Shown piece by piece: positions 16,194-31,905 of a stretch of DNA of 34,279 nucleotides. The notes below the pieces were generated by a model, which had not been told where the DNA came from, did no database searches, and saw nothing but the letters and a program-made list of their open reading frames with translations. The number at the start of each line of letters is the position of its first letter. The stretch's first letter is position 1. This DNA is from Bacilli bacterium (GTDB lineage: Bacteria > Bacillota_I > Bacilli_A > RFN20 > CAG-826). The DNA is taken from the NCBI GenBank assembly GCA_017940265.1, contig JAGAYY010000053.1, positions 1-34,279 of the forward strand. Direction: 5' to 3'. The position numbers were made by a program, and so were the translations under genes.

Positions 16194-16244
16194 GGCAAAT
16201 GAGCCTCCTTGTTATTACTATAACACTTTAGTGTTTATTTTCTA

Positions 16245-17600
16245 TCAAAAAGAGTATTTGTATTTCCCTAAAGCGAATGTTAGATAATGAGGAATAGTAA
16301 TTACATCTCCTTCTTCAGAAACGTTATAATCGCCGATTTTGATAAGTTTTGTTTTTCCATAATGTTCAGGATGATTCATGACTGTTTTACTAGATTTTGT
16401 ATTGCCATTTTTAGCCTTGGCTTCAATCAAAGTGGAATATCCTGCATACGCTATAACAAAATCAATTTCCAAGCCGGTTTCTTTAGCAAAATAATACGTA
16501 TCAATGTTTGCTTTGTTCAAGGAATCAAAAACCAAAGCTTCATAGATGGCGCCCTTACCTTGCCCTAACTCCCCTTTATTGATAGCGGAAACAGTTTCGA
16601 TACCATACATAGCAGTAACAATGCCAATGTCTTCTGGGAATAATTTGAATTGGGATATAATTTTCGATCCCGCTAATGGTAACGATGGAACTTCAACATT
16701 ATGTATTTTGGAAACAATGTGTGCTTGCTTTAAATATTCAACAGCATCCTTTTTCTCATACATTGAACCAGAAGAAATCTTAGAGACAACGAATCTTTTG
16801 TTTTCTTTTGATAAGAATGTTGGTATTAAATCATACACCTCTTGAATTCTTGCAACTTCTGCTGGTTTAAAAACAGGCATACCATCTTTGCCTTTTCTTC
16901 TTCCAAAATCAGTTTTCATATCAAAAACCGTGCTAGTCAAAACATCATAAGCTAAGGCTATATTATGCGTATCAACATATTCCTTAACAACTTTAGGAAA
17001 ACCACCTATGCAGGCATATTTAAGAAACAAGTCCTTATATAATGTATGGACACTTTTTGGCACTGGTTTCTTTTTTTCAAAGCAATCAATAATAGCGTTA
17101 TTTTGTTCTTCTTTATAGCCTAAGGCCCATAAAAACTCTTCGAAATCCATAGTTTTCATCTGAAAAACATCTTCATAACCAGTCGGTGCAGGAGTCGCAT
17201 CTCCGACCACATATCCATTAATCCCTAAATAAGAACCACTGCCAATTACGTTATATCTACCATCTATACCAAAATTCTTAAAAGCAAGTCTAGCTTTAGG
17301 GCATTCTTGTATTTCGTCAAAGAAAATTAATGATTTCCCCGGAACAATTTTGTGATTGTCAAAACGCAACGAAACATTAGATATGATTGTATCTATGTCT
17401 ATTTTACCTTCAAAGTCAGACGCGAATTCAGGATTGTTCCAAAAATTAATTTCAAAAAGTTCTAAATTATTTCTTTTAGCAAATTCTCTTATTGTTTCTG
17501 TCTTGCCACATTGACGAATTCCAACAATCAAAGCAGGACTTTTGCCTTTTTTATTAATCCATGAATCTAAATGTTGATCCAATTTTCTTCTAAAATACAT
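16245..17600 (-). CDS. AAA_14/DUF4143-family ATPase
   Basis: ATG 17600 is chosen because GAGGTG lies 7 nt upstream; a TTG-initiated extension of seven residues is less likely. The 451-residue product has Walker A GIRQCGKT (27-34), Walker B SLIFFDEIQECP, and the GSGSYLG sensor-like stretch. A winged-helix-like region lies near FVVSKISSGSMYEKK. The C-terminal DUF4143 part holds GLEIDFVIAY followed by TLIEAKAK, a PD-(D/E)XK-like pattern. The family is widespread and multi-copy in gut bacteria, with unclear roles. It is transcribed from tandem repeated promoters just upstream. A second intact paralogue is at 30694. Confidence 0.88.
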   Translation of the reverse strand: MYFRRKLDQHLDSWINKKGKSPALIVGIRQCGKTETIREFAKRNNLELFEINFWNNPEFASDFEGKIDIDTIISNVSLRFDNHKIVPGKSLIFFDEIQECPKARLAFKNFGIDGRYNVIGSGSYLGINGYVVGDATPAPTGYEDVFQMKTMDFEEFLWALGYKEEQNNAIIDCFEKKKPVPKSVHTLYKDLFLKYACIGGFPKVVKEYVDTHNIALAYDVLTSTVFDMKTDFGRRKGKDGMPVFKPAEVARIQEVYDLIPTFLSKENKRFVVSKISSGSMYEKKDAVEYLKQAHIVSKIHNVEVPSLPLAGSKIISQFKLFPEDIGIVTAMYGIETVSAINKGELGQGKGAIYEALVFDSLNKANIDTYYFAKETGLEIDFVIAYAGYSTLIEAKAKNGNTKSSKTVMNHPEHYGKTKLIKIGDYNVSEEGDVITIPHYLTFALGKYKYSF

Positions 17601-17615
17601 ATAATAGCACCTCTT

Positions 17616-17703
17616 TAACAATTTCGGAGCGAGTTTTCAATACTTTTATAACAATTTCGGAGCGAGTTTTCAATACTTTTATAACAATTTCGGAGCGAGT
17701 TTT
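17616..17703 (-). repeat. 33-bp tandem repeat carrying duplicated promoters
   Basis: Three copies (the third partial, 88 bp in all) with an exact 33-bp period lie directly upstream of the ATPase gene. The unit on the minus strand reads AAAACTCGCTCCGAAATTGT, then TATAAAAGTATTG. TTGAAA (17673-17668) and TATAAA (17650-17645) are exactly 17 bp apart. A second set is CTTAAA (17706-17701) with TATAAA (17683-17678), also 17 bp apart. The copy nearest the gene has TTGAAA at 17640-17635 but only TAAAGA at the -10 position. Copies are nearly identical, so the expansion looks recent. Confidence 0.9.
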
Positions 17704-17723
17704 AAGCGAAGAATGAGGCTGTA

Positions 17724-17748
17724 TTAAAAAAGCATCCTTTAGGATGCT
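17724..17748 (-). terminator. Intrinsic terminator of the arc operon
   Basis: On the minus strand AGCATCC and GGATGCT form a perfect 7-bp stem around TAAA, followed by six T residues. It lies about 25 bp after the arcB stop. Confidence 0.92.
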
Positions 17749-17773
17749 AATTGTTTTCACAAATGATGTATTA

Positions 17774-18769
17774 TTATTCGTCTTCTTTCATAGTGGCTAA
17801 CATGACCGCTTTAATAGTGTGTAATCTATTCTCAGCTTCATCAAAGACCACTGATTGTTTACTTTCAAATACTTCTTCAGTAACTTCTAAACCATTAAGT
17901 CCAAACTTTTCGTATACTTCCATACCCACTTTAGTTTCTAAATTATGGAAGGATGGTAAACAGTGAATGAAGATGGCTTTAGCATCCGCAAAAGACATGA
18001 CACGGGTATTAACTTGGTATGGTTTTAATAAGTTAATTCTTTCTTCCCAAACAGAAGCATCTTCACCCATAGAAACCCAAACATCGGTGGCGATGACATC
18101 AGCGTCTTTAACGCCTTCTTCAACACTTTCAGTAAATGTTATTTTAGCGCCTGTCTCTTTAGCGATTTCTAAACATCTATTTCTTAACTGTTCATTTGGC
18201 CATAATTCTTTTGGTCCAACCATACGGTAATCTAAGCCCATTTTCGCGGCCCCTACTAAGTAGGAATTACCCATGTTATATCTACCATCACCTAAGTAGG
18301 CCATCTTAATACCTTTAAGTTTGCCTTTTTGTTCAATGATGGTCATAAAGTCAGCGAGGATTTGTGTTGGGTGATAATCTTCGGTTAAACCATTCCATGT
18401 TGGAACTTTGGAATATTTAGCTAAGTCTTCAACAGTCTTTTGTTTAAAGCCTCTATATTCAATGCCGTCAAACATTCTGCCTAACACTCTTGCGGTATCA
18501 GCAATTGATTCTTTCTTACCCATTTGAGAACCGCTGCTACCGATATAAACAGCATTCATGCCTAAATCAGCAGCGGCCACTTCAAAAGCGCATCTAGTTC
18601 TTGTGCTATCTTTTTCAAAAAGAAGAACAATGTTCTTACCTCTTAAAACATCATGGGCTTCACCATTATGTTTTTTCTTTTTTAAAGAAAGAGATAAATC
18701 TAATAAGTATTGGATTTCTTCTGGTGTGAAATCTAACAAAGTTAATAAGTTTCTTTTATATAAGTTCAT
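17774..18769 (-). CDS. arcB: Ornithine carbamoyltransferase (catabolic)
   Basis: A 331-residue enzyme converting citrulline and phosphate to ornithine and carbamoyl phosphate in the arginine deiminase pathway (or the reverse in biosynthesis). Carbamoyl-phosphate-binding STRTR at 55-59, HPTQ at 133-136, and FIHCLPSFH near 268-274 are present; the last motif usually reads HCLPAFH or HCLPRFH, so Ser here is a mild variant. The start at 18769 is 2 nt after the arcA stop. Being in an operon with arcA supports the catabolic name arcB rather than argF. A terminator follows. Confidence 0.95.
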
Positions 18770-30348: not shown

Positions 30349-30693
30349 AACTAAAATCCTCTTTTTTGTATTGGTATTTAAAAATACAAACGTCATTTAA
30401 ATATAATTCCATCGACTATTTTTACGCCAGTCGATTTCAATTGTGAATATAGTAAACAAAGCGTAGACAAATTGCAATATATATTTTCTTTGAAAATATA
30501 TAATTAATGATTTTTGTATACACTCAGGTGCAATTGTAACAAAAAGCACTGATTCTTTCAGTGTTTAATCAAATTGCTTTTTCATCAGTTAACACAAAAG
30601 ATGCATTCGATTTAAAATGTTTTATATACATCGACAAACAGGAAAAAAGCGTGTAAAATAAAGTAGACTTTAGAAAACTCGGAGGAATCATTT
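30349..30693. promoter_or_regulatory. AT-rich divergent region full of inverted repeats
   Basis: The gap between divergent genes has TATATATTTTC/GAAAATATATA (30478-30488 and 30492-30502, loop TTT), TCGACT/AGTCGA (30412-30417, 30429-30434), and CACTGA/TCAGTG (30547-30552, 30558-30563). No ORF of note is seen. One promoter for the right-hand gene is listed separately. Confidence 0.5.
30631..30659 (+). promoter_or_regulatory. SigA-type promoter of the 403-residue ATPase
   Basis: TCGACA (30631-30636), 17-bp spacer, TAAAAT (30654-30659). Downstream AGACTTTAGA and CTCGGAG match the upstream region of the pseudogene at 6437-6656. Confidence 0.65.
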
Positions 30694-31905
30694 ATGGATT
30701 ATCTCAAAAGACAGATGGAAGAAGCGGTTTTAAAAGCATCCAAAACTTTTCCAGTTGTAATGGTTTGTGGACAAAGACAAACAGGAAAATCAACTATGCT
30801 TAAGCATCTTTCAGAAAGCGACAGAAAATATGTCACATTTGACGACGCAAAAGCAAGAGCTCTTGCTAATAATGACCCTAATTTGTTCTTTGAAACATAT
30901 GGCTATAAATTGTTTATTGACGAGTTTCAAAGAGTTCCATCCATTCTTCTAGATATTAAAAAGATTGTTGACGAACGAAAAGAAAATGGAATGTTTTGGC
31001 TAAGTGGATCTCAGAAATTTGTGATGATGAAAAATGTTTCTGAATCTTTGGCAGGTAGAGTTGCAATATTTGATATGCTTCCTCTATCAAGTGGTGAAAT
31101 CAATCACGATTTCAATGGCCCGTTTTCTCCTGAAGTTGATCTTTTAAAGAAAAAACAAAACCGTCAAAAAACAATGAAAGAAGTGTTCGAAGACATATTT
31201 AAAGGTGGTCTACCTCAAATTGCCTTAAATCCTGAAATTGATAGAGATATTTATTATTCCTCATATCTTGATACATACATTGAAAGGGATATAAGCGCGC
31301 TTGAACAGGTTGGAAAGTTAGAGGAATTTAGAACTTTTGTTACTTATATGGCGGCAAATACCGCGCAAGAACTGAAATATGATTCTATTTCTAAAGTGGT
31401 AGGTGTTTCCGCTCCAACGATTAAAGAATGGATATCAATTCTAGAACGATCTGGCATTATTTTCATTCTTAGACCTTATTCATCTAGTTTAACAAAGAGA
31501 TTAGTCAAAACACCAAAGTGCTACTTTTTAGATACTGGATTAGCTGCTTATCTAACTTCATGGCCTAATGCCGAAACGCTGATGAACGGAAATGCTGCTG
31601 GAGCATTCTTTGAAACATATGTTGTCGGAGAAATATTAAAAAGTTATACAAACGAGGGTAAAAAAGCAAACTTATACTATTATCGAGACATCGACCAAAA
31701 AGAAATAGATTTGCTAATGGTCGGACCTGATTCTATCTACCCGATTGAAATTAAAAAAGCTAAAAACCCATCAGTTGCAGACAAAAACTTTACTGTCTTG
31801 AACAAGTTTGGGATGAGCGTAAAACCTGGTCTAGTTATTTGTATGGCGGATGAGCTCTTTCCGATAAACAAAAATAACTGGTATTGCCCGATTGGTTTAA
31901 TTTGA
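30694..31905 (+). CDS. AAA_14/DUF4143-family ATPase (paralogue)
   Basis: A 403-residue ATPase with Walker A GQRQTGKST (26-34), Walker B YKLFIDEFQRVP, and GSQKFVMMKNVSESLAGR. A winged-helix stretch DSISKVVGVSAPTIKEWISI lies mid-protein. The DUF4143 C-terminus has QKEIDLLMVG followed by YPIEIKKAK, a PD-(D/E)XK-like signature. GGAGG precedes ATG 30694. The N-terminal half matches the pseudogene at 6437-6656 closely, more so than the 451-residue paralogue at 16245-17600. Function of the family is not settled; proposed roles range from DNA handling to defence or mobile-element upkeep. Confidence 0.88.
   Translation: MDYLKRQMEEAVLKASKTFPVVMVCGQRQTGKSTMLKHLSESDRKYVTFDDAKARALANNDPNLFFETYGYKLFIDEFQRVPSILLDIKKIVDERKENGMFWLSGSQKFVMMKNVSESLAGRVAIFDMLPLSSGEINHDFNGPFSPEVDLLKKKQNRQKTMKEVFEDIFKGGLPQIALNPEIDRDIYYSSYLDTYIERDISALEQVGKLEEFRTFVTYMAANTAQELKYDSISKVVGVSAPTIKEWISILERSGIIFILRPYSSSLTKRLVKTPKCYFLDTGLAAYLTSWPNAETLMNGNAAGAFFETYVVGEILKSYTNEGKKANLYYYRDIDQKEIDLLMVGPDSIYPIEIKKAKNPSVADKNFTVLNKFGMSVKPGLVICMADELFPINKNNWYCPIGLI

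Follow-up and report, generated by a model that had tools for sequence, protein, structure and literature searches.

Organization of the locus

The window analysed here, a stretch of 34,279 nucleotides from a Bacilli metagenome assembly, contains a tandem array immediately upstream of a minus-strand gene for an AAA_14/DUF4143 ATPase of the PDC-S01 family (Table 1). Comparison with related genes showed that this repeat is one example of an array, with a fixed spacing and a gene-specific sequence, shared by the majority of genes of two PDC-S01 clades. Tandem Repeats Finder reported 2.7 copies of a 33-bp unit with 100% matches and a score of 176, by far the strongest array within the window, and only 15 nt separate its end from the start codon. 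The full unit on the minus strand, AAAACTCGCTCCGAAATTGTTATAAAAGTATTG, occurs 2.7 times with zero mismatches; its 22-bp core, AAAACTCGCTCCGAAATTGTTA, has exactly three exact occurrences on that strand, and the linkers between the copies are identical. The first-pass annotation of the stretch had described the repeat as the multiplication of a complete promoter. It was right about the exact period, the hexamers that it quoted (TTGAAA or CTTAAA, 17 nt, TATAAA) and the gene-proximal copy running into the ribosome-binding region, and a domain search also bore out the AAA_14/DUF4143 assignment of the gene. In the entire 1.73-Mb assembly, the core was not found outside the array with up to three mismatches allowed, and no further array repeats that might mark a regulon were detected in this genome.

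Table 1. Coordinates of the array, the associated gene and adjoining features in the window.
Feature	Positions	Strand	Remarks
PDC-S01 gene, 451 aa	16245..17600	-	AAA_14 + DUF4143; PDC-S01 profile; AlphaFold2 model; conserved residues
Ribosome-binding site AAAGAGG	17610..17616	-	direct sequence reading
33-bp tandem array	17616..17703	-	2.7 copies (Tandem Repeats Finder)
Array copy 3, gene-proximal	17616..17637	-	core alone; ribosome-binding region in place of linker
Array copy 2	17638..17670	-	same 33-bp unit as copy 1; core 17649-17670; TTGAAA-17-TATAAA
Array copy 1, gene-distal	17671..17703	-	33-bp unit; core 17682-17703; contains CTTAAA/TATAAA hexamers
Intrinsic terminator of argF	17731..17748	-	between argF and array
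Inserted segment, ~1.55 kb	16230..17782	-	lies in the argF-metG gap; carries the terminator, the array and the PDC-S01 gene; junctions read from sequences

The layout of repeats and linkers at constant spacing resembles that of a CRISPR array, or might reflect a structured RNA. Since the window linkers are identical, they do not constitute a set of spacers, and the repeat is not organized as a CRISPR array. RNA folding of the array was not stronger but weaker than that of shuffled sequences (z +1.85), and across the family the arrays lie mostly upstream of a -10-like element. Both explanations are scarcely credible.

The 451-aa product matched the PADLOC PDC-S01 profile over effectively its full length (residues 2-447, E=3.3e-110). 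PDC-S01 is a PADLOC phage-defence candidate combining AAA_14 and DUF4143. It is reported to rank among the commonest such candidates of prokaryotes and of the rumen, with experimental validation pending (PMC12988326, PMC13356809). The AlphaFold2 model, with a predicted local distance difference test (pLDDT) score of 90.7, comprised an AAA+ domain (residues ~1-235), a winged helix (~246-302) and a PD-(D/E)XK domain (~313-445), the last two names being based on the order of secondary-structure elements, DUF4143 and the PDC-S01 literature. The conserved residues include G32 K33 and D95 E96 (Walker), as well as E378, D380, E393 and K395 of the nuclease; because the catalytic residues are conserved, an active nuclease is plausible. 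A PDB sequence search revealed no significant homologue. The best solved structural matches were the archaeal STAND-type ATPases 2QEN and 2FNA (SSO1545), which resemble PDC-S01 across the AAA domain and the winged helix (Z ~16); however, the alignments (15-18% identity over ~255 residues) extend only to about residue 333 and leave out most of the nuclease domain. Orc1/Cdc6 bound to origin DNA (2QBY) and ORC chains were also among the structural matches listed by Foldseek.

Distribution of arrays among PDC-S01 genes

Related genomes, plasmids and viral contigs served as sources of homologues, which were chosen by protein similarity alone. The DNA upstream of their start codons was scored for self-similarity at each lag from 15 to 60, with a score of at least 16 taken as an array. 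The sample drew on metagenome assemblies and was heavily weighted toward a single order of Bacilli, plasmid and viral loci being represented in modest numbers. Arrays were detected upstream of 114 of the 160 PDC-S01 genes and of 1 of 161 controls drawn from the neighbouring genes at these loci. An initial control set was rejected, as nine of the ten "controls" with high scores showed a lag of 32/33 or 23 and were apparently neighbours sharing a PDC-S01 array; the final set excludes overlapping DNA. Among the first 101 genes, 72 surpassed the 99th-percentile score of dinucleotide-shuffled sequences, against an expectation of 1, almost all with periods of 32/33 or 23/46 bp, and none of 100 segments taken just further upstream exceeded that threshold. 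In a hold-out batch picked before inspection, the best lag was 32 or 33 in 32 of 39 genes. The periodicity was also seen in most of the IMG/VR loci; a scan of viral contigs with a clade-B protein found none. On plasmids, 33-bp arrays were present in Segatella, Collinsella and Glaesserella, and 23-bp arrays in Bacteroides and Prosthecochloris. Arrays upstream of PDC-S01 are not described in the literature searched, in which preprints and subscription papers are thinly covered, and an earlier description may therefore exist.

The period follows the protein phylogeny. In a phylogenetic tree built from 101 proteins, the genes with 23-bp arrays formed one clade with a support of 100 (19/19), the 32/33-bp arrays were confined to another clade, that of the window gene (52 of 68 members), and two further PDC-S01 clades had no arrays. 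The incomplete occurrence within the 32/33-bp clade indicates that the array is either not obligatory or able to decay. All of these states coexist in the window genome (G000), which has seven DUF4143 genes in three array states: a 33-bp array at the window gene (C49), a 23-bp array on contig C58 (L071), whose core is AAACTCTCGGAATGA, and none at the other five, including 30694-31905 of the window (loci L071-L075 are located on contigs C58, C46, C31 and C55). Three cores were present in 55 of 95 arrays (range 2-6), and the copy numbers of orthologues were mostly equal or one apart. The occasional difference of one copy between close orthologues shows that slow turnover of the array does occur. 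A separate observation concerns L016 and L017, orthologues with ~85% identity and a common core, in which the spacing is uniformly 33 bp in one and 32 bp in the other, as if all linkers had changed together in a concerted turnover.

The suggestion in the first-pass annotation that a unit of three helical turns would present the same face to a regulator holds in its general form, because the spacing is what each clade conserves. The same-face part is only approximate. At 10.5 bp per turn, 33, 32 and 23 bp (the last in the sister clade) correspond to 3.14, 3.05 and 2.19 turns, and thus strict binding to one face is not required.

Relationship between array and protein sequences

The core sequences vary widely from gene to gene, and this variation follows the protein rather than the genome. 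Array similarity increased with protein identity (Mantel test, 0/500), was orientation-specific, and paralogues from one genome were no more alike in their arrays than pairs from different genomes with equal protein identity. Paralogues within a genome have unrelated cores and even different periods, whereas orthologues in different families have common cores, with the orientation kept. Between copies of one array, the best 18-bp stretch was 88% identical and the remainder 55%. Between orthologues with 60-80% protein identity, the cores were 71%, the linkers 51% and the flanks 31% identical, in a comparison anchored by the best match, which inflates the values for cores and linkers alike. A core of ~18 bp is therefore conserved while linkers and flanks drift, which argues that most arrays are not products of recent slippage.

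The units are asymmetric. Dimeric palindromic sites were considered as a general rule and rejected, since dyads were present in 3 of 73 units, with no excess over shuffled units. By eye, the units of L081 and L142 look palindromic; the viral-contig locus L142 has upstream a perfect pair of 33-bp copies, both containing a near-complete palindrome, ATAAATGTGTA...TACACATTTAT, in contrast to the asymmetric units of other loci.

These patterns bear on the possibility that a host transcription factor, and not the ATPase, binds the arrays and coordinates defence genes. Such a role would suit the location at the promoter, and separate regulators do bind direct repeats at other defence promoters, e.g., RptR (PMC12255303). 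However, one factor would have to serve paralogues of the same genome that differ in core and even in period, as at C49 and C58, cores are common to orthologues in different families, and the window unit is absent from the rest of its own genome. We consider this explanation improbable.

Position of the arrays relative to the promoter

The median distance between array end and start codon was 40 bp. Of 108 genes, 83 had a TATAAT-like (-10-like) element around or past the array end, against 44 expected, at a median of 11 bp downstream. Repeated sites thus lie at the promoter of the protein's own gene, as in an autoregulatory operator array. In the window, the array is unusually near the start codon, and the likeliest promoter elements consequently fall inside copies 1-2. 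The hexamers there are a moderate match to a promoter (10/12). The final T of the -10 element is usually its most conserved base; TATAAA lacks it, and a consensus scan requiring this base omits the window hexamers.

The first-pass annotation had proposed that each unit carries a promoter and that slippage, by changing the copy number, could make expression variable. The perfect copies and the 10/12 match in the window, together with orthologues that are sometimes one copy apart, are in line with this idea. A promoter in every unit was rejected as a family trait: a promoter-like pair was found in 14 of 73 distal units against 15.6 expected from shuffled units, the -10-like element usually follows the array, and most relatives have arrays of the same period with unrelated cores. 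The promoter-like appearance of the window units is no property of the family. Variable expression through slippage is not favoured either, as the linkers diverge and the cores stay, the copy number peaks at three (55/95), and the sole near relative found carrying the gene (G005, the rumen Erysipelotrichaceae metagenome-assembled genome RUG14382) also has three copies, although some orthologue pairs elsewhere differ by one. Multiplication of a promoter by tandem duplication is therefore very improbable as an explanation of the array.

Proposed function of the array

The asymmetric, oriented cores, the spacing set by clade, the sequence set by the protein and the lack of other copies in the window genome are most simply accounted for by cognate recognition: the array is probably the DNA site recognised by the protein of the neighbouring gene, to whose sequence the cores appear matched. 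Given the location at the promoter, autorepression would be the likeliest consequence of such recognition, and we regard its chances as about even. Each ~18-bp core would be recognised by a single AAA+/winged-helix/PD-(D/E)XK protomer, and protomers would assemble head to tail, usually on three cores, with the spacing fixed by clade at 32/33 or 23 bp. Placed over and upstream of the promoter, the bound protomers would block RNA polymerase and keep a potentially harmful nuclease at a low level; a loss of occupancy, for example in phage infection, would then raise expression. From the sequences we infer all three elements, namely cognate binding, repression by binding and a release tied to infection, and we assign this reading as a whole a probability of about 0.52.

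Several observations weigh against it. An array was detectable in only the 52 of 68 members of the 32/33-bp clade mentioned above, and the similarity of orthologous arrays is partly due to common descent. Domain-wise covariation was weak (partial r: AAA core, 0.11; winged helix, 0.08); the partial Mantel analysis gave weak peaks near residues 1-36, 121-170 and 265-304, which are only suggestive of where a DNA-reading domain may lie. Finally, only the position of the array speaks for repression rather than for activation or DNA loading.

Repeated sites near the gene of the protein that binds them are also a feature of iteron Rep systems and of Orc1/Cdc6 initiators, which bind origin boxes. The main alternative to autorepression is a docking or loading platform, on which the AAA+ nuclease would assemble at its own iteron-like sites, like Orc1/Cdc6 or plasmid Rep, with the assembled complex as its working form; this complex might be poised as a sensor, represent a guarded self-sequence or serve the maintenance of a selfish gene. 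A spacing that is fixed while the sequence is free points to an ordered oligomer, the units are asymmetric with dyads not in excess, Orc1/Cdc6 and ORC chains appear among the Foldseek matches, and both nuclease and Walker residues are conserved. The resemblance to Orc1/Cdc6, an AAA+ domain plus a winged helix, is structural only; PDC-S01 differs in its added PD-(D/E)XK nuclease domain, and a replication role is not implied. Moreover, the array lies at the promoter, with a -10-like element after it in most genes, for which regulation is the simplest account, no autonomous replicon was seen, and the window gene is a single chromosomal insert. We consider the loading platform less likely than autorepression. 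A still less likely variant combines both functions: the nuclease would be poised as an oligomer on its own clade-spaced array as on a private DNA address, and an invader that displaced it by degrading, modifying or taking over host DNA would both derepress the gene and activate the nuclease, so that the array itself would be the sensor.

The predicted autorepression has a parallel in RptR, an autorepressor that acts on the promoter of a restriction/DarTG2 defence island via three direct repeats (PMC12255303), the number of cores in a typical PDC-S01 array. However, RptR is a separate dimeric regulator of 9-bp repeats with a 6-bp palindrome, whereas the PDC-S01 arrays have asymmetric, gene-specific units spaced at 32/33 or 23 bp, and the protein proposed to bind them is the effector. 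Head-to-tail oligomers, such as those of BldC (PMC5859096), would fit direct repeats that are asymmetric and vary in number; BldC has 68 residues and is MerR-like, and no sequence relation to PDC-S01 is claimed.

The arrays supply a predicted ligand for each PDC-S01 protein and a basis for testing specificity by swapping paralogues of the same genome, and the dozens of protein-core pairs are material for a recognition code. They also offer a means of finding out whether the nuclease's own promoter controls it or is acted on by it.

Genomic context of the window gene

Array and gene belong to a segment inserted between argF and metG, which are adjacent without the insert in two close relatives (argF/metG 98-99% identical). 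This gap (16194-17782 in the window; loci L121-L130) is empty in some relatives and contains unrelated DNA in others, and is thus an insertion-prone spot. The insert with its three-core array is shared by G005, in which a single base of the gene-proximal copy is changed. Nucleotide identity between the window and G005 was 98% for the array, 96% for the gene, 91% for argF and 85% for arcA.

This context raises the question of whether the repeats are the end of a mobile element or a recombination site recognised to mobilise the gene. In addition to the insertion at a site occupied by different DNA in relatives, the patchy distribution of the family and its presence on plasmids and viral contigs point in that direction. 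However, the array lies ~80 bp inside the left junction with no counterpart at the right one, a domain search of the protein detected neither an integrase nor a transposase domain, and the promoter-proximal position is constant, which makes this a poor candidate explanation.

The window contains a second gene matching PDC-S01 profiles, at 30694-31905 (plus strand, 403 aa), whose product belongs to an array-less clade. Its upstream region has no direct repeats and contains one 11-bp inverted repeat at 30478-30502.
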